Assembly: GCA_943330745.2 (NCBI GenBank)
Contig: CALQIX020000007.1
Location: forward strand, 62,001 to 126,000
Direction of reading: 5' to 3'
Length of the DNA: 64,000 nt
From: Lishizhenia tianjinensis
Lineage (GTDB): Bacteria > Bacteroidota > Bacteroidia > Flavobacteriales_D > Crocinitomicaceae
Under the pieces are notes generated by a model. The model was not told the origin of the DNA. It did no database searches and saw only the letters and a list, made by a program, of their open reading frames with translations. Made by a program: the position numbers and the translations under genes. Every line of letters starts with the position of its first letter. Position 1 is the stretch's first letter. Shown here one piece after another: positions 48,739 to 63,655 of this stretch.

Positions 48739-48905
48739 AAATTATAACTAATTGTATTTTTTCCTACTCTTTTAAGGTTTTTCGGAATTCACCAAATCAA
48801 AATTACACAGCATTGTTTGTTTATTGTTTTAAATGAAAGTATTTTTATTCACAATTTGATGTTTAGTTTCAAAATGTGCTAATAAATAATTAATTTGGTG
48901 AACAC

Positions 48906-56346: not shown

Positions 56347-56419
56347 TGGCCCATGGTGTAACTGGCAACACGTCTGTTTTTGGTACAGAAGAGTCTAGGT
56401 TCGAGCCCTAGTGGGCCAA
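56347..56419 (+). tRNA. tRNA-Gln (anticodon TTG)
   Basis: A complete cloverleaf folds by eye. Acceptor TGGCCCA (56347-56353) pairs fully with TGGGCCA (56412-56418). The D arm is GTG/CAC with a GG-containing loop. Anticodon stem TCTGT/ACAGA frames the loop TTTTGGT, with TTG at 56380-56382. The T arm is CTAGG/CCTAG with loop TTCGAGC. Base 56419 is the discriminator; the sequence continues C-A so only part of CCA is encoded. An integrase gene follows closely, so this tRNA is the probable attachment site. Confidence 0.93.
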
Positions 56420-56424
56420 CAAAG

Positions 56425-56448
56425 AAGGAGCGTAACAGCTCCTTTTTT
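56425..56448 (+). terminator. Intrinsic terminator of tRNA-Gln
   Basis: AAGGAGC (56425-56431) pairs with GCTCCTT (56438-56444) over a 6-nt loop, followed by a T run to 56448. Confidence 0.85.
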
Positions 56449-56457
56449 CATTAAATA

Positions 56458-56491
56458 ACACTTATTTTTACCTATTCTCGTAAAAAAGTGT
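56458..56491. repeat. Imperfect 12-bp inverted repeat downstream of tRNA-Gln (possible att core)
   Basis: ACACTT plus TTTTAC (56458-56463, 56466-56471) pair with GTAAAA plus AAGTGT (56480-56485, 56486-56491), with a 2-base bulge and an 8-nt centre. It lies between the tRNA terminator and the integrase gene, where a recombinase core site is expected. Confidence 0.4.
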
Positions 56492-56543
56492 GAAATATCG
56501 AAAAATCAAAAAGTATCTAAAACCAACTAAACAGTAATAAAAT

Positions 56544-56707
56544 TACAACAATTCGAGGACAGAATTTTTGTTGTAGTTTTGTTCACTTTTGGTCTGTATC
56601 CCTTGTTAATTCTACATGCCAGTTGTTTCAATTTTTCCGTTTTACCCATTGATGGGGTCATAATAGTGTGATTTGCAGTGAACAAAAATTCATAGCATGT
56701 ACAACAA
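56544..56707. repeat. Cluster of short direct and inverted repeats before the integrase gene (arm-type sites?)
   Basis: TACAACAA occurs at 56544-56551 and 56700-56707, and inverted as TTGTTGTA at 56568-56575. GAATTTTTGTT (56562-56572) pairs with AACAAAAATTC (56681-56691). TTTTGTTCAC (56577-56586) pairs with GTGAACAAAA (56678-56687). Such arrays fit integrase or excisionase arm sites and autoregulation. The last copy overlaps the first codons of the longest integrase frame. Confidence 0.45.
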
Positions 56708-57974
56708 TGTTCATCCGCCAATGCACCTCTTATTTTGGATAAATAGTAGGCGAATTCAAAAAAATGGAATGGCTCCAATCTACGTTAGAATAACGGTTGA
56801 CGGGCTTCGTGTAGAGTTATCCCTCGCAAGAACGGTACCCGAAGAGTACTGGGATAAAAGTGCGCAAATCGTCTCAAATAAGTACGAAGATGGCGGTGTC
56901 CTAAATTCATATTTAACGATGATAAAGGGACAACTCATGTCAATTTACAACCAATCAATAGCCTGTCAGGAGAAAATAACGGCAGTATTAATTCGGGATA
57001 AATACCTCGGAAAAGATGCAAAAAGCAAGAAAAAAACCTTGACAGACGCATTTGAATACCACAATGTAAAGATGGAAGAACTCGTGAAAATTGATAAAAT
57101 AACGAAAAAGACGCTCATGCGGTATCAATCCACCTTGTCCAAAATAAAATATTTCATGCAGACCTACAAAGGGATAAAAGACATAGCCTTAGAAGATGTA
57201 AAATTATCTTTCATTACAGAATACGAACATTATTTAGTAACCAAAGAAAGACTTCAAAACAACACAATACACAAAGAAGTAAAAATAGTCAAGAAGGTAT
57301 TTAACATGGCAGTAGCTTTAGATTGGATACCCTCGCATCCCCTTAATGCGTTCAAAACAGCGTATCGAAATCCGGTAAGACAAGTATTAACGCAGGAAGA
57401 ATTATACGTCTTAATCAACAAAGAATTCACTATAGAAAGGTTGGCGGAGGTTAGAGACGTATTTATCTTCTGTTGTTATACAGGGTTTGCTTACGGAGAT
57501 ATATATGATTTCGAACAAGGAGACGAAGAGTTGGGAATCGATGGAAATTTATGGTTAAGTACACAGCGAAGAAAGACTGGGGTGCAAGAGCGCGTTCCCT
57601 TGTTACCAATAGCGGTAAAAATAATAGAGAGATACAAGAACCACGAATACTGCAAACGAAACAACAAGTTATTGCCGGTAAATTCAAATCAGCGGTACAA
57701 TGCCTATTTGCAGGAAATTGGAATCATCTGTAATATCAAAAAGAAACTCACAACGCATATTGCCCGGCATACCTTCGCAACAACGGTCACCTTGGCCAAC
57801 GGAGTTCCAATAGAAACAGTAAGTGCCATGTTGGGACATACAAGTATCAAGACCACACAAATTTATGCCAAGGTATTAGAGAAAAAAGTCAGTGAAGATA
57901 TGAACCAATTGAGAAGCAAACTTTTTGGAACAAACATGCCTTGGGATATCGGAAAAGAAAGTAAGATAAGCTAG
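56697..57974 (+). CDS. Tyrosine recombinase/integrase of the Bacteroidota conjugative transposon type
   Basis: The 425-residue protein has an N-terminal arm-binding region (SRRIQKNGMAPIYVRITVDG), a SAM-like core-binding domain (about 110-215) and a catalytic domain. Visible catalytic residues are the QRRKTG lysine, HIARHTF (His-x-x-Arg), LGHTSIKTTQIYAK (His and the nucleophile Tyr). At the usual first Arg position the sequence is YTGFAYGD, so Arg I is replaced, as known for IntDOT-like enzymes. It catalyses integration and excision, here probably at tRNA-Gln. Met9 at 56721 is an alternative start, outside the repeats. Confidence 0.92.
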   Translation: MYNNVHPPMHLLFWINSRRIQKNGMAPIYVRITVDGLRVELSLARTVPEEYWDKSAQIVSNKYEDGGVLNSYLTMIKGQLMSIYNQSIACQEKITAVLIRDKYLGKDAKSKKKTLTDAFEYHNVKMEELVKIDKITKKTLMRYQSTLSKIKYFMQTYKGIKDIALEDVKLSFITEYEHYLVTKERLQNNTIHKEVKIVKKVFNMAVALDWIPSHPLNAFKTAYRNPVRQVLTQEELYVLINKEFTIERLAEVRDVFIFCCYTGFAYGDIYDFEQGDEELGIDGNLWLSTQRRKTGVQERVPLLPIAVKIIERYKNHEYCKRNNKLLPVNSNQRYNAYLQEIGIICNIKKKLTTHIARHTFATTVTLANGVPIETVSAMLGHTSIKTTQIYAKVLEKKVSEDMNQLRSKLFGTNMPWDIGKESKIS

Positions 57975-58079
57975 GGGTTTATACCTAAATATGGTAGGGT
58001 TTACCCTGAAATTCAAGTCAAAATGAAACTTCATAACAAGATAACGTATGCATTTGCAAAATTATAAGGTAGAGTAAAT

Positions 58080-59621
58080 ATGCAAGTGGGTGTTTTTAAT
58101 CTTACGGAATTGACTTCACTGTGGCAAGAGGTTCGAAACAGCAAAAACGTAGAAAACTATTGCAACATTTTACAAGAAAATCAACCTGCACCTAAAATCA
58201 TAGAAGTAATTCAGGAGAGAAATCCGAAGAAAACGGAAAAGAACTACCAAAGTTTGGGCAGAATTATGCAGGAACATCCCATGTACGAAGATTATCTCAG
58301 GCGATTTTGCGAACAAGAGCGAGCAGAGCAAAATGATAAAAAGCAAATCGAAATCCTTGAAAAGGAGTGTAGGAAGATCGGAAGATTAGAAAAAATAACC
58401 CGCATTAGTGCGAATGGACGCAACACCTGGTTATTGCTTTACACAGCAACATGGAAGGAACTCAGCCAAACTGAGATTCAATTTGCATACCTGAATTGGA
58501 AATTAAGGACAGAAACAGTAAGAATAGAACATGAAATAACCAACAATCTATACCGCATAGAATCACCCGAAAGAGTAAAGCATTGGGTTTCCGAAATACA
58601 AAATTCATTGCTGAATGAGGCAATGGAGTTGCTAGCACAAAACAATCAGAACATACCATTGGCATCGGAGTTAATAAAAACCGAATACAATCAGAAAGAA
58701 CTGGAATCCCTAACCCTCTATTATATAAATCAAGTAATACTCAAGTTAAAACGAAAATACGGACACCATTTCAGCGAAGAAGTAAATGAATGTTTGAGAA
58801 CCTATGCCATATCTATCAATGAGTTACGCAGAGAAATTGCCCAATTAAAAAAAGCCATATCAACATGGGAAGATCCAAAGCTAGGCCAACTCATACAATC
58901 CCAAATTCAGGTCGTAGAAGATTTCATAAAAGGAGATTTTATTTCCCTCCGAGAGTTTACCTATGCCAAAGCGGTCATTCACGATATTGTACAAAAATGC
59001 TGGGAAAAAGAAGGAATGGAGTGGAATTCACGAAAGATGAGATACCTCTTATTGTATCATAATTTCAATCACCTAGACTTCATAGCATGGCTAACAAATA
59101 ATTTCAGGTATGAAATGAATAAATTCAGTAATCCATGGGAATTAAAACAATGGTTGCTCAAAGAACAAAAGAAAATCAAGCAAATAATTCCCCATTCAAA
59201 TAGAATGTACAAATCAGGAATTCCTGGAGCAAAAGAATTAATCACCACATGGATACAAGAAGAATTGCTGTACATAGACGGAATACATGCTGCCAATCCG
59301 GAGCAATTGATTTATCAACCGGTAAACGATAAGCAAGAACAGAAACTAACTACAACCCTAAATGTTCCTCAGTTGGCACTGTTTGCAGCATTATTGGTAG
59401 AGGAAGGGATTATACAAGAAAAAAACAAAACCCATGTCTTTTCAGCTTTTTCCAACGTATTCAAAACCAAACACCAATCAAGCATTGCTGTTACCAGTTT
59501 ACGAAATAACTATTACGATAAAGATCCCAAAAACATGACCGTATTAAAAACAAAACTAATTCAAATGATTAACCGACTCAATATCAGTCTAAATTCAAAT
59601 GAGAGTTTTTCAGAACGTTAA
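58080..59621 (+). CDS. Mobile-element protein of unknown function with RteC-like C-terminus
   Basis: The 513-residue protein is highly helical, rich in Gln, Asn, Glu and Lys, with no signal peptide. I do not recognise the N-terminal 400 residues. The last 85 residues (LNVPQLALFAALLVEEGIIQ, then TSLRNNYYDKDPKN) have the pattern of the C-terminal domain in RteC-like and related proteins of Bacteroidota elements; this is a resemblance, not a confirmed match. It lies about 105 bases after the integrase gene, a usual position for such proteins in CTn-like elements. Confidence 0.65.
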   Translation: MQVGVFNLTELTSLWQEVRNSKNVENYCNILQENQPAPKIIEVIQERNPKKTEKNYQSLGRIMQEHPMYEDYLRRFCEQERAEQNDKKQIEILEKECRKIGRLEKITRISANGRNTWLLLYTATWKELSQTEIQFAYLNWKLRTETVRIEHEITNNLYRIESPERVKHWVSEIQNSLLNEAMELLAQNNQNIPLASELIKTEYNQKELESLTLYYINQVILKLKRKYGHHFSEEVNECLRTYAISINELRREIAQLKKAISTWEDPKLGQLIQSQIQVVEDFIKGDFISLREFTYAKAVIHDIVQKCWEKEGMEWNSRKMRYLLLYHNFNHLDFIAWLTNNFRYEMNKFSNPWELKQWLLKEQKKIKQIIPHSNRMYKSGIPGAKELITTWIQEELLYIDGIHAANPEQLIYQPVNDKQEQKLTTTLNVPQLALFAALLVEEGIIQEKNKTHVFSAFSNVFKTKHQSSIAVTSLRNNYYDKDPKNMTVLKTKLIQMINRLNISLNSNESFSER

Positions 59622-59772
59622 TTTCCAATAAAAGATGAACAGAAATACCCTTCATAGTCCACAGCTCTTCCTCACTGAGGTACAACAACGCTTTCCAATC
59701 AATAATCTGATGAATATGCATAAACAACAAAAGCTCGGAACTTAAATGAGGTAGGTTTTTTGAATTTTCCAT
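59584..59772 (-). CDS. Possible small 62-residue protein with HhH-like segment
   Basis: An open frame from the ATG at 59772 encodes a 62-residue protein with the segment DWKALLYLSEEELWTMKGI followed by SVHLLLEINVL. That pattern resembles a helix-hairpin-helix as found in the RNA polymerase alpha C-terminal domain. The frame overlaps the 3' end of the upstream gene by 38 bases, convergently. A structured GC-rich block lies just upstream on the same strand. It may be chance; the frame stays open further upstream but there runs through the structured block. Confidence 0.4.
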   Translation of the reverse strand: MENSKNLPHLSSELLLFMHIHQIIDWKALLYLSEEELWTMKGISVHLLLEINVLKNSHLNLD

Positions 59773-59791
59773 CGCATGTTTTGTACTAAAA

Positions 59792-59945
59792 AGTAGCGTG
59801 GTCAACAGTTTGCAGGTAACCCGGAACCGCCAAGCTCCTTCCCCAAAGCAAACTGTGCCCACGCCATGCGAGGACGACCAGCTTGTCTTTTTAGGGGAGT
59901 TTGATAATTGGCGGTTTCGATTACCCAAAAAAGCGTGTCGCTACT
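59792..59945 (-). ncRNA. Candidate structured RNA or folded DNA element (154 bp, GC-rich, crossing stems)
   Basis: This block is about 52% GC in AT-rich surroundings. It is bounded by AGTAGCG (59792-59798) and CGCTACT (59939-59945). Inside, GCGTGG plus ACAGTTTGC (59796-59801, 59805-59813) pair with GCAAACTGT plus CCACGC (59848-59856, 59859-59864). GGTAA plus AACCGCCAA (59815-59819, 59825-59833) pair with TTGGCGGTT plus TTACC (59908-59916, 59921-59925), crossing the first stem. CAAGCT/AGCTTG (59831-59836/59880-59885) is a further alternative. On the minus strand a promoter-like TAGCTTTG lies 20 bases upstream and TTTT follows the closing stem, so I favour minus. Identity unknown. Confidence 0.4.
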
Positions 59946-60137
59946 GAATCTTTTTATTTACAGTCAAAGCTACTCATTTTTTAACTTTTTAGCTGCTCAA
60001 TCCAACAACATTTAATTATTTATCACAAGACGAAAAGCTATTGTTTTCAAACAATTCAATAGAGGTTGCACAACCCCTTGCAACCCCATTAGCCTATTTT
60101 TTTACATTCTATTTGCAGAGAATTTAAAACAAAAAAT
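59946..60137. other. AT-rich intergenic region with palindrome and repeats before the HTH gene
   Basis: Together with the structured block this forms the only stretch above 300 bases without a firm gene. It holds ATTGTTT-TC-AAACAAT (60040-60055), a palindrome with a 2-base centre. It also has GGTTGCA (60064-60070) facing TGCAACC (60079-60085). These may be operators or replication sites for the downstream HTH and replication genes. Confidence 0.4.
59965..59972 (-). promoter_or_regulatory. -7 promoter-like box (TAGCTTTG) pointing into the structured block
   Basis: The minus strand reads TAGCTTTG, an exact TAnnTTTG match. A TTG lies 25 nt further upstream (59998-60000), slightly beyond normal spacing. 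Transcription would start near 59962 and cross the structured block and the small frame at 59584-59772. Confidence 0.35.
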
Positions 60138-60440
60138 ATGGCAGCTACAATTGTAACAATTGAGGATTTATTATCCTTCAAACAAGACTTAATCCATGAA
60201 GTGAGATTAATCTTACAAGACTCTTTAAAACAAACGGACGAAAAAAAGGAAGAGAAAAAAAATGAAAAATCCTGGTTAAAATCGAATCAGGTACAACGCA
60301 TGTTAGCAATTTCTCCAAGTACGCTTCAAAACCTCCGATTAACCGGAAAAATCCCATACACCAAAATTGGCGGAGTAATCTTTTATCCAAAAGAAGACAT
60401 AAACCAACTGCTTGAGTCCAAAATTCGAAACCGAGTTTAA
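60138..60440 (+). CDS. Helix-turn-helix (excisionase-like) DNA-binding protein
   Basis: The 100-residue protein has a charged N-terminal helix rich in Lys and Glu (EKKEEKKNEK) and a C-terminal MerR-like winged HTH (HTH_17): LKSNQVQRMLAISPSTLQNL, then RLTGKIPYTKIGGVIFYPKE. This module binds DNA in excisionases and plasmid or transposon regulators. Its stop codon directly abuts the next start at 60441, so it is co-transcribed with replication-type genes. It could be the element's Xis or a regulator of replication. Confidence 0.85.
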   Translation: MAATIVTIEDLLSFKQDLIHEVRLILQDSLKQTDEKKEEKKNEKSWLKSNQVQRMLAISPSTLQNLRLTGKIPYTKIGGVIFYPKEDINQLLESKIRNRV

Positions 60441-61145
60441 ATGGAAAGAAGATTATACAAGATCAATTACATTACCCATTTGAATCGTGTGAGTCAAATG
60501 CTTATGGAGGATAATAGACTCACAGCATGGCACATCAGTCTGTATTATGCACTGTTTCATTTGTGGAATGCAAATAATTTCAATAATCCATTTTTAATTC
60601 ATCGAATTGAAATCATGAAGGCGGCAAAAATCGGCTCTTTAAATACCTATCACAAAGGCTTATACCAACTGCAAGAATGGAGTTATATCGCCTATTTTCC
60701 CTCGTACAATTCATTCAATGGAAGCAGGGTACACATGTTCATTTTTGATACAACACTAAGTACAACAAATAAGAGAACCCGTGATAGAGGTACAAAGAGT
60801 GCTACAGGACAACAAGTGAGTCCTATTATAAAAAGAAAAGAAACAACTAATAAAGTATTAAAAACAAAAAAAAGCACGAGACAAAAAACTCTATTTGAAC
60901 CTCCAACTTTTGAATTCATAAAGGACTTTTTTAAAGAAAATAATACGCTTGAAAGGGAGGCAGAATTATTTTTTCACCATTATGAATCCGTTGGATGGAA
61001 ATCCGGAAAAAACAACATTCAAAACTGGCAAGCACTAGCAAAAAAATGGATGATCAACAGTCAGAAATTCCAGGCAGAGAAAACCGGCAAAATTGCCACA
61101 AATCACTTACACGCAAAACCCACCAATTATGAAGAAACACTATAA
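60441..61145 (+). CDS. Replication-initiator-like/DnaD-like mobile element protein
   Basis: The 234-residue protein has an N-terminal helical winged-helix-like region (INYITHLNRVSQMLMEDNRL, then WHISLYYALFHLWN). A basic linker (about 110-150) follows. The C-terminal segment EAELFFHHYESVGWKSGKNN then IQNWQALAKKW resembles the end of phage and CTn replication proteins. The gene overlaps the DnaC-like ATPase gene by 17 bases. The pair looks like an initiator plus helicase loader; function is inferred from layout. Confidence 0.7.
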   Translation: MERRLYKINYITHLNRVSQMLMEDNRLTAWHISLYYALFHLWNANNFNNPFLIHRIEIMKAAKIGSLNTYHKGLYQLQEWSYIAYFPSYNSFNGSRVHMFIFDTTLSTTNKRTRDRGTKSATGQQVSPIIKRKETTNKVLKTKKSTRQKTLFEPPTFEFIKDFFKENNTLEREAELFFHHYESVGWKSGKNNIQNWQALAKKWMINSQKFQAEKTGKIATNHLHAKPTNYEETL

Positions 61146-61779
61146 TCCGGCAATTGAAAAGCCGTTTTTAATAGATGAAGAAGGTTCACGTCTTTATAAT
61201 TACGAGCATACTCTTCAGTTTTTACAATACCGGGGCCGACAAAGATTTGGAAAAAGCTTCACCATTCAAAAAGAAGACTTGCCAATTATTTTCAAGTTGT
61301 TGATTTACTTCACCAGAAGCGATAATTTGTGCAAAGAGAAGGGCATTGATCCAAACAAAGGAATCTTACTTGCAGGCCCCATTGGCAGTGGAAAAACATC
61401 ACTCATTACTCTAATGACAGAGTTTACGCTACAAAGTAATCATTTCTTTATCCGTTCCACCCGCGCAATTGCAGCAGAGTTTCACGATGACGGGTATCAA
61501 GTCATACAGAAGTATTCCTGGATACCCAAGATTTATTGCTTTGATGATTTAGGAGTGGAGCAAAACATGAAGTATTACGGAAACGAGTGCAATACCATTG
61601 CAGAGATTCTCTTAAATCGCTATGATTTGATGGTCAAGCACGGGCATGTCACCCACGCCACCACCAACCTAAGTGCTTCAGATTTAGAATCACTTTATGG
61701 CAATCGCTTACGCTCCCGAATGCGTGAAATGTTCAACCTCATCGCATTTCCCAACAACACCCCCGACAAACGAAAATGA
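61129..61779 (+). CDS. DnaC/IstB-like AAA+ ATPase (probable helicase loader)
   Basis: This protein of about 216 residues starts at the ATG at 61129. The in-frame alternative at 61093 would overlap the previous gene by 53 bases. Walker A is AGPIGSGKTSLI, Walker B IYCFDDLGVEQ, and sensor-like THATTNLSASDLE precedes YGNRLRSRMREMF with the arginine finger region. These fit the DnaC family that loads DnaB-type helicase. No IS21 transposase is adjacent, so a replication role is more likely than IstB. Overlaps the initiator-like gene by 17 bases. Confidence 0.85.
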   Translation: MKKHYNPAIEKPFLIDEEGSRLYNYEHTLQFLQYRGRQRFGKSFTIQKEDLPIIFKLLIYFTRSDNLCKEKGIDPNKGILLAGPIGSGKTSLITLMTEFTLQSNHFFIRSTRAIAAEFHDDGYQVIQKYSWIPKIYCFDDLGVEQNMKYYGNECNTIAEILLNRYDLMVKHGHVTHATTNLSASDLESLYGNRLRSRMREMFNLIAFPNNTPDKRK

Positions 61780-61787
61780 CTCAATTT

Positions 61788-61963
61788 CCTCTCCCCTTGA
61801 GGGGAGATCGAGAGGGGTGATATCCTCTCCCGTGCCCTTCTCCCGTGGCAGTAGGGGAGACAAAAAGGGGTGATATCCTCTCCCGTGACTGTCTGCCTTG
61901 GCAGAAGAGGAGATCGAGAGGGGTGACAAAATTCTTTTCTCGAGTGGAGATCGAGAGGGGTTA
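61788..61963. repeat. Four imperfect GC-rich hairpin repeat units
   Basis: Units lie at about 61788-61820, 61824-61873, 61877-61926 and 61933-61963. Each ends with GAGAGGGGTGA or a close variant (unit 2 AAAGGGGTGA, unit 4 GAGAGGGGTTA), and the first three begin with CCTCTCCC. Within units, CTCTCCC and GGGAGA-type arms form self-complementary hairpins. The third contains an additional CTGCC...GGCAG hairpin. Unequal unit lengths and internal differences make this an old tandem array, not CRISPR. It fills most of the gap between the ATPase and amidase genes. Confidence 0.75.
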
Positions 61964-62006
61964 CAACATCCCAAAATAAAATTATTAATAACTAAAAAAT
62001 CAATTC

Positions 62007-62639
62007 ATGAAAATCAAAGACCTCATCCAATTCCCATTAACCAAAGCCCAATACTACCCGGAAGTATTTCCGAAAAAACAAATTGTGTTGCACCATACCG
62101 TGAGTGGCGCTAATGCCAAAAACGTCATCAGCGGTTGGGGCTATACCCCGGTTCGGGTAGCCACAGCCTTTGTAATCGATGGAGAAGGAAATATATACCA
62201 ATGTTTCAGTTCAGCACATTGGGCCCATCATTTAGGAACACACAACCGAAACAACACCCAGTTGAACCAACAATCTATCGGCATTGAAATTTGCAATTGG
62301 GGAGCGTTAATCGAAAAAGGTGGAAGGTACTTTTCCACTTTCAACCGAGAGGTTCCCAAAGAAGAAGTCATTGACTACGGCATGCAATGGCGAGGACACC
62401 GCTATTTCCACAAGTACAAAGACGAGCAACTCGAATCTTTAAAAATTCTTCTCGAATACCTCTGCGAGAAATACGCCATCCCCAATACCTACCAACCCGA
62501 CATGTGGAAACTCAACACCCAAGCCCTCGATGGAACACCCGGCATCTGGACACACGTTTCTTTCCGCGCGGATAAATCCGATTGCCATCCGCAGTTGAGT
62601 TTGATTAAGTTGTTGAAGAGTTTGGGAGAAGACAGATGA
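62007..62639 (+). CDS. N-acetylmuramoyl-L-alanine amidase (Amidase_2)
   Basis: This 210-residue protein has no signal peptide. The amidase_2 (PGRP-like) fold is shown by QIVLHHTVSG near residue 26 (zinc His), FVIDGEGNIYQ near 52, GIEICNWGAL near 92, and KSDCHPQLSL near 192 (second zinc region). It cuts the bond between muramic acid and stem peptide. Lacking its own export signal, it would need lysis or another exporter, as with endolysins. It is visibly more GC-rich than neighbouring core genes. Part of the tRNA-Gln-linked element. Confidence 0.9.
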   Translation: MKIKDLIQFPLTKAQYYPEVFPKKQIVLHHTVSGANAKNVISGWGYTPVRVATAFVIDGEGNIYQCFSSAHWAHHLGTHNRNNTQLNQQSIGIEICNWGALIEKGGRYFSTFNREVPKEEVIDYGMQWRGHRYFHKYKDEQLESLKILLEYLCEKYAIPNTYQPDMWKLNTQALDGTPGIWTHVSFRADKSDCHPQLSLIKLLKSLGEDR

Positions 62640-62878: not shown

Positions 62879-62908
62879 TTGCCGTTTCTTAGAAAATTTT
62901 TATATTTG
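62879..62908 (+). promoter_or_regulatory. Promoter-like TTG - 19 nt - TATATTTG overlapping the AbiEi 5' end
   Basis: TTG (62879-62881), a 19-nt spacer and TATATTTG (62901-62908) match both promoter elements. The first TTG is also the furthest possible start codon of the AbiEi-like frame, so either the element or that start codon is spurious. Confidence 0.4.
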
Positions 62909-63655
62909 AGAATCGCAAAAAAATCATTACATATAAAAGAACTTAAAAATGCTTTTGTTCATGACCAAAGAATTTCGGTACATAACCTAATTCAGTTCTT
63001 TCAAAGGTTTGAGGAACAGGTCAACAGAACAACAGTTGATTGGCGTATCTATGAACTTACAAAGCTGGGGATTTTGCATAGAATTGGCAGAGGTTGTTAT
63101 TCTCTTTCTGAGACTTATTATTTTAAACCAGAGGTATCACGTTCGTTAAAACATCTTTTCGGAATAGTTAAAAATCAATTCCCTTACCTAAATATATGTG
63201 TATGGAATACAAAAATCATTAATGAATTCATGTTGCACCAACCAGGTCGATTTTTCACCATACTTGAAGTGGATAAAGATGCTATGGAATCGGTGTTTTA
63301 TAACTTGAAAGATCAGGGAAGAGACGTATTTCTTAATCCATCAGAGGAAGTGTTTAGCAAATATGTGGCAAGTAAAAAAGAGCCAATAATAATAACCAGT
63401 CTTATAACAGAGGCTCCAATTGAAGAAATTGATGGAGTCAAAACTGCCACTTTGGAGAAGGTACTAGTTGATATATGTAGTAATGAAACTTTGTTTAGCT
63501 CGCAGCAAGGTGCTGAATTGACAAGGATTTATGAAACTGCATTTGAAAAATACACAATAAGTGAAACAAAACTGTTGCGGTACGCAACAAGGAGGAATAA
63601 AAAAGAAGTCATTGAACAACTATTAAATAAACAAAGAAACGGCAATAAATATTAA
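62879..63655 (+). CDS. AbiEi-like type IV antitoxin/transcriptional regulator
   Basis: The protein of up to 258 residues has an N-terminal winged HTH (SLHIKELKNAFVHDQ, then VDWRIYELTKLGILHRIGRG) of the type in AbiEi proteins. A conserved C-terminal domain follows: CVWNTKIINEFMLHQPGRF, DAMESVFYNLK, ITSLITEAPIEE, and TATLEKVLVDICSNETLFSS. Such proteins pair with AbiEii nucleotidyltransferases, here encoded just downstream. The start is uncertain: no in-frame ATG before the HTH; TTG at 62879 or 62906 are choices. It would repress its operon and neutralise the toxin. Confidence 0.8.
   Translation: MPFLRKFLYLRIAKKSLHIKELKNAFVHDQRISVHNLIQFFQRFEEQVNRTTVDWRIYELTKLGILHRIGRGCYSLSETYYFKPEVSRSLKHLFGIVKNQFPYLNICVWNTKIINEFMLHQPGRFFTILEVDKDAMESVFYNLKDQGRDVFLNPSEEVFSKYVASKKEPIIITSLITEAPIEEIDGVKTATLEKVLVDICSNETLFSSQQGAELTRIYETAFEKYTISETKLLRYATRRNKKEVIEQLLNKQRNGNKY

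Follow-up and report, generated by a model that had tools for sequence, protein, structure and literature searches.

A GC-rich and apparently folded block in the 64,000-nt stretch of Lishizhenia tianjinensis DNA analyzed here (referred to as the window) raises the question of whether it functions as RNA or as DNA and, if as RNA, what it might control. The preliminary description, made without database searches, had noted a GC content of about 52% at 59792–59945 in AT-rich DNA, long complementary arms crossing in a pseudoknot arrangement, an enclosing AGTAGCG/CGCTACT pair, and a promoter-like box and T-run on the minus strand. It proposed a new element-borne RNA, a regulatory leader for a small minus-strand frame, or a folded replication or transfer origin. 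The observed features held. GC content is 51.9% compared to 34.6% and 32.6% in the 500 nt on either side, the crossing arms are present as helices B and C with AGTAGCG/CGCTACT as the outer pair, and both the box TAGCTTTG and the T-run behind the last arm (59792–59788) were confirmed. Further helices G, F and D, not separated in the earlier reading, exist as well, and the strand could be refined: the block corresponds to an RNA of approximately 160 nt on the minus strand. The coordinates of all parts are listed in Table 1.

Table 1. Parts of the structured RNA and its surroundings in the window (positions of the whole stretch).
Feature	Position	Strand	Basis or remark
Promoter box TAGCTTTG, Bacteroidota −7 type TAnnTTTG	59965–59972	minus	TAnnTTTG kept in L004, L005, L006
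Whole structured RNA	59787–59945	minus	Covariance-model match: R1 188 bits, R2 137 bits
5′ hairpin H (AGCG-ACA-CGCU)	59932–59942	minus	By eye, in most but not all copies; no statistics
Arm G5, partner G3 (59882–59895)	59925–59934	minus	Arm-swap z −13.5
Arm C5 (two segments), partner C3	59908–59926	minus	99.1% and 96.7% of cells paired
Arm D5, partner D3	59890–59899	minus	95–97% paired, every pair covaries
Arm F5, proposed antiterminator arm, overlaps G3, partner F3/B5	59868–59890	minus	Arm-swap z −11.1
Shared arm F3 = B5	59848–59864	minus	Pairs with F5 or B3, mutually exclusive
Arm D3	59838–59847	minus	As D5
Arm C3, with C5 helix C	59815–59833	minus	As C5
Arm B3, proposed terminator arm, with B5 helix B, crosses C and D	59796–59814	minus	Arm-swap z −13.7
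U-run behind helix B, candidate intrinsic terminator end	59787–59792	minus	73/79 copies
62-aa ORF, helix-hairpin-helix/RNA polymerase alpha-CTD-like	59584–59772	minus	Homologs in L004, L005, L006

Single-strand folding of the minus strand was better than that of shuffled sequences (z −3.46; 0 of 200 shuffles as good), and the plus strand gave a z of −2.82 with 1 of 200 shuffles. A chance origin of the fold is excluded, since the helices are kept in 78 distinct homologs and none of the pairs in C, D and B lacks a two-sided change. Using blastn in 240 genomes of the same family, homologous loci were detected with 100% (L002), 89% (L004), 88% (L005) and 72% (L006) identity; in L004, L005 and L006, the block has the same pair of neighbors, genes related to those for an HTH_17 protein and an unnamed protein of 513 aa. 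A covariance model built from the window and these three loci (R1; helices A, C and D, pseudoknot left out) matched in 12 of 395 genomes of the phylum. A second model (R2), built from 14 matches, was found in 42 of 220 genomes of one family, 32 of 257 genomes phylum-wide and 12 of 86 genomes of the own genus, with up to seven copies per genome. These genome searches covered Bacteroidota only.

Four copies are present in the own genome, on contigs C7 (the window), C6 (70641–70811), C3 (87941–88107) and C1 (38266–38433). The latter three (L166, L167 and L168, respectively) each lead a paralogous LamG protein. One copy resides on pB3-10, a mobilizable plasmid of Rhizosphaericola mali (Chitinophagaceae); this plasmid was reached only via divergent homologs, as blastn of the block itself against plasmids and phages gave no match; the other named carriers are Flavobacteriales MAGs. 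At least four IMG/VR contigs carry the RNA, one of which (L213) also has a terminase-like gene, as judged by eye. The proposal of a new element-borne RNA was, therefore, right in kind and too narrow in scope, as the majority of copies are found in other places, including three in the own genome. Several candidates were rejected on the way: an exact-match IMG/VR locus (L064) was a coincidence inside a terminase-like gene, one-mismatch pattern matches within the taxonomic order were negative with R1 wherever it was run, except for known homologs, and a loose viral pattern yielded mostly chance hits, R2 retaining 4 of 80 loci. Anchoring the search on the HTH_17 neighbor returned the same element type only.

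RNA-family databases were searched as the preliminary description had suggested, and its statement that the block matches no known family held against Rfam 15. No family reached the gathering threshold over the RNA in a covariance-model scan of the window, which does pick up a tRNA and the DUF805b motif elsewhere; a lax search of the block gave chance matches only, and 32 homologous loci had no Rfam 15 match over the RNA. Open-licence papers, with subscription papers and supplements outside the scope, contained no description of it. We conclude from these computational searches that the RNA forms a new, widespread and apparently undescribed family of Bacteroidota, absent from the RNA-family databases searched.

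The helices were examined in an alignment of 79 copies, 78 of them distinct (A9), which had been fitted to C, D and F. Column covariation is strongest in C and D, and the top 17 mutual-information pairs are all pairs of the model. Since A9 had been fitted to these helices, the test was redone without such fitting, on a MAFFT alignment of 55 sequences below 80% identity, in which pairs of C and D again lead the list. All 15 pairs of C5/C3 show two-sided changes and are among the top mutual-information pairs. When the crossing stem B is included, 95.2% of cells hold standard pairs vs. 67.8% after shuffling, dropping to 35–44% when partners are slid by 1–3 columns; two-sided changes number 558 vs. 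171 shuffled, with at least one at 28 of 28 pairs. With F replacing B, 97.5% are paired and two-sided changes number 522 vs. 154 shuffled. The helix B core is paired in 94.7% of cells with two-sided changes at all pairs, the inner F helix in 97.4%. In an arm-swap test, the own arms of each sequence were compared with arms borrowed from other sequences; G, B and F gave the strongly negative z values listed in Table 1 (0 of 1000 permutations each), the control −0.3. The outer helix A (AGTAGCG/CGCTACT) is the weakest-supported pairing across the family (z −2.2), so that this part of the preliminary description holds in the window and finds only weak support beyond it. B and F cannot coexist because they use the same bases, and both coevolve. 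Thus, coevolution shows, on computational grounds, that helices C, D, F, B and G are real and that F and B are mutually exclusive via their shared bases. It does not establish whether G and B are compatible with C and D in three dimensions. Highly conserved positions are few and scattered.

The same alignments define the strand. Read on the minus strand, G-U pairs outnumber A-C mismatches by 86:0 in F and 87:5 in B. As G-U is tolerated and A-C is not, the RNA is encoded on the minus strand; this pattern would be unexpected for a DNA structure or a plus-strand RNA. Two observations had been named in advance as refuting a structured element, and neither was made: pair-breaking changes are compensated, and the block is not explained by a conserved protein frame, since the long minus-strand frame has stops in L004, L005 and L006.

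Upstream of the RNA on the same strand lies a promoter, identified by its motif only. Of 55 non-redundant copies, 36 have TAnnTTTG no more than 60 nt upstream, compared to 3% of background stretches; the distance to the RNA is mostly 16–25 nt (19 nt in the window). The box itself is kept among the window, L004, L005 and L006 while its surroundings differ. At the other end, at least five T within the 8 nt after the last arm were found in 73 of 79 copies (background 11%). The first downstream ORF of at least 110 aa is co-oriented with the RNA in 48 of 50 non-redundant loci, and the first upstream ORF is split 27:27. A start codon follows within 70 nt in 29 of 77 cases, at 15–60 nt in many loci, and all 10 readable copies of the own genus start the gene 44–48 nt past the U-run, eight of them preceding similar LamG-type proteins. 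In the SusC group, the gene starts 200–720 nt further on. In the window, the small ORF MENSKN… starts with ATG 59772, 15 nt after the RNA, and not at TTG 59928 as in the frame listed earlier; its copy in L005 has a weak RNA_pol_A_CTD match (E 0.0073) below the Pfam cut-off. The earlier suggestion of a regulatory leader for a small minus-strand frame is supported by this arrangement of box, RNA and ORF, as well as by the conservation of the ORF in L004, L005 and L006 and the co-orientation across loci.

The downstream genes encode SusC-type TonB receptors (27 loci), ECF sigma factors (8), response-regulator-like proteins (4), a subtilase, a WD40 protein with a sorting tail, RibD_C and many unknown proteins of secreted or lipoprotein-like type. 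In the one own-genome relative scanned, the downstream protein carries Laminin_G_3 and a T9SS sorting tail; PHROGs gave nothing useful on the downstream genes. SusC, ECF sigma, LamG, RibD_C, subtilase and other genes do not form the single pathway that would be expected for a metabolite riboswitch. Divergent small HTH regulators lie upstream in about 39 loci, roughly half of the total (e.g., L104, L108 and L109), approximately 66–150 nt from the RNA and opposite the SusC or ECF sigma gene, with weak HTH_19/HTH_26 matches. Two RNA copies about 5 kb apart in L180 (6001–6158 and 10964–11121) are followed by near-identical SusC-like gene starts and accompanied by different divergent HTH genes; recombination or gene duplication is conceivable here. 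In L089/L102, a reverse transcriptase (RVT_1, 6e-21) starts 448 nt past one RNA copy. A retron msr-msd or another RT-associated ncRNA was rejected, as this is a single RT at that distance in L089 and RTs are not a recurrent neighbor cluster.

On balance, we favor by a modest margin the view that the RNA is a cis-acting leader of Bacteroidota working like a transcription attenuator. What is expected of a cis-regulatory leader, namely a same-strand gene directly downstream (48 of 50 loci) and a promoter motif upstream, is present, and so are the sequence hallmarks of an attenuator, a coevolving helix (B) followed by a U-run and a competing helix (F) that shares arm B5. That B with the U-run terminates, and that the choice of F vs. 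B is regulated by a ligand, protein or RNA, is inferred in the absence of transcript data. In this model, minus-strand transcription would start just past the TAnnTTTG box, with the leader of about 160 nt being made first. Arms would exchange partners as the RNA emerges: the 5′ arm would pair first with G3/F5 (helix G), then F5 with F3/B5 to give helix F, the putative antiterminator, stacked on D and C as one long rod, and last B3 would compete with F5 for B5 to form helix B, crossing C and D. As helix B abuts the U-run, its formation would release RNA polymerase ahead of the gene; were the F/D/C rod, the presumed sensing or stabilizing part, held stable or B3 occupied, transcription would enter the downstream gene. 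The gene controlled in the window would be the 62-aa alpha-CTD-like ORF of an integrase-bearing element. Prefix folding of the window RNA and of L091 gave the order of an early 5′ hairpin (H/G with G3/F5), F, the D and C rod, and B3, and the mean duplex energies of B (−22.1 kcal/mol) and F (−18.4 kcal/mol) are similar. However, when the whole leader is folded by plain MFE, B is not picked, and the lack of a common downstream pathway, unlike most metabolite riboswitches, also counts against an attenuator. In the SusC group with its distant gene, a short transcript separate from the gene is also possible.

A free-standing, trans-acting sRNA remains possible. It would be transcribed from a promoter of its own and end at a constitutive terminator (B and the U-run), F being a mere folding intermediate and the gene being promoted separately. 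The promoter box and U-run fit this explanation, as do several copies per genome and the 200–720 nt to SusC in many loci, the main reason why it is not excluded; moreover, with Rfp18, a conserved and structured sRNA has been described from Flavobacterium (PMC9723704). On the other hand, start codons 15–60 nt after the RNA in many loci and the constant 44–48 nt in the own genus argue against it, and F and B both coevolve, whereas a plain terminator would not need F. The explanation was demoted because of the 48:2 co-orientation with the next gene, compared to 27:27 upstream. Rfp18 of Flavobacterium psychrophilum is likewise strongly folded and conserved in flavobacteria, and it is an independent sRNA acting on protease mRNAs (PMC9723704); a relationship to the new RNA is conceivable.

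We consider it unlikely that the RNA is a put-like or protein-binding leader, acting by processive antitermination via RNA polymerase or a factor, or by control of translation or mRNA stability. Put and LoaP-type RNAs likewise act in cis directly after the promoter and before accessory genes. The constant position next to a promoter and the diverse, accessory, surface-related downstream genes, partly in long operons, would fit. However, the conserved U-run that directly follows a coevolving helix, together with the competing arm, suggests a decision inside the leader, and a partner protein is not consistently encoded next to the RNA, the divergent HTH being present in only about half of the loci. 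Unlike put and LoaP-type RNAs, the new RNA has two nested or crossing cores and a 3′ U-run, and action further downstream is without evidence. A family of self-cleaving ribozymes spread over mobile and accessory genes would agree with the double-pseudoknot fold, the many unrelated contexts and several copies per genome; it is very improbable given the promoter directly upstream, the U-run directly downstream, the strict gene co-orientation and the few, spread conserved positions. The remaining proposal of the preliminary description, a replication or transfer origin folded as single-stranded DNA, can draw on RepA/DnaC-like genes nearby in the window and a replication initiator gene upstream on pB3-10. 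It is all but ruled out by the one-sided tolerance of G-U over A-C, seen on one strand only, and by the ordinary chromosomal genes that most copies precede.

Returning to the attenuator reading, leaders with terminator and antiterminator (riboswitches, T-box, attenuators) are the nearest known kind: they likewise combine a promoter, a structured leader, an arm shared by exclusive helices, a U-run and a close gene. In contrast to them, the present fold matches no Rfam 15 family, its proposed terminator helix forms a pseudoknot across the core, and no common pathway is found. RteR (RF04181), an sRNA of CTnDOT-type elements, is likewise an RNA on integrative elements of Bacteroidota, differing in fold and length. 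Our initial idea of an element-specific RNA or RteR analog was dropped after R1 matched in 12 of the 395 phylum genomes, and identity with RteR was rejected, as the RteR match in L158 (40–122) and the new RNA (1501–1668) are different things 1.4 kb apart. Flavo-1, 6S-flavo, Bacteroides-1 and other Bacteroidetes motifs (Weinberg et al., 2010; PMC2864571) are structured RNAs of the same phylum; none of them, contained in Rfam and in the library scanned, matches the new RNA.

A bolder reading, for which the present evidence falls a little short, is a phylum-wide orphan class of riboswitch-like RNAs with an arm passed between partners, a pseudoknotted terminator and a common signal. Both Bacteroidota and their mobile elements would use such a class as a gate for SusC-type receptor operons, ECF sigma factors, proteins secreted by the T9SS and accessory genes. 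In any case, an apparently undescribed RNA family suggests a testable control layer over SusC-type uptake, ECF sigma factors and secreted surface proteins, extending to genes on plasmids, integrative elements and phages. A sharp prediction follows from the competing arms: specific mutations should fix the leader in its on or off state.

As to the surroundings of the window copy, the region 56347–62639 likely represents a mobile element integrated at a tRNA. It comprises a tRNA gene (56347–56419), a tyrosine integrase gene beside it (56697–57974) and genes for the 513-aa protein, HTH_17, RepA-like, DnaC-like (AAA) and amidase_2 proteins; a second copy of the tRNA end (attR direct repeat) was not found up to the contig end. 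A DUF6577 protein with a strong Pfam match is encoded on the plus strand (62879–63655), either within the element or next to it. The DUF805b RNA motif (RF02914) lies on the minus strand at 48761–48795 and scores 43 bits.
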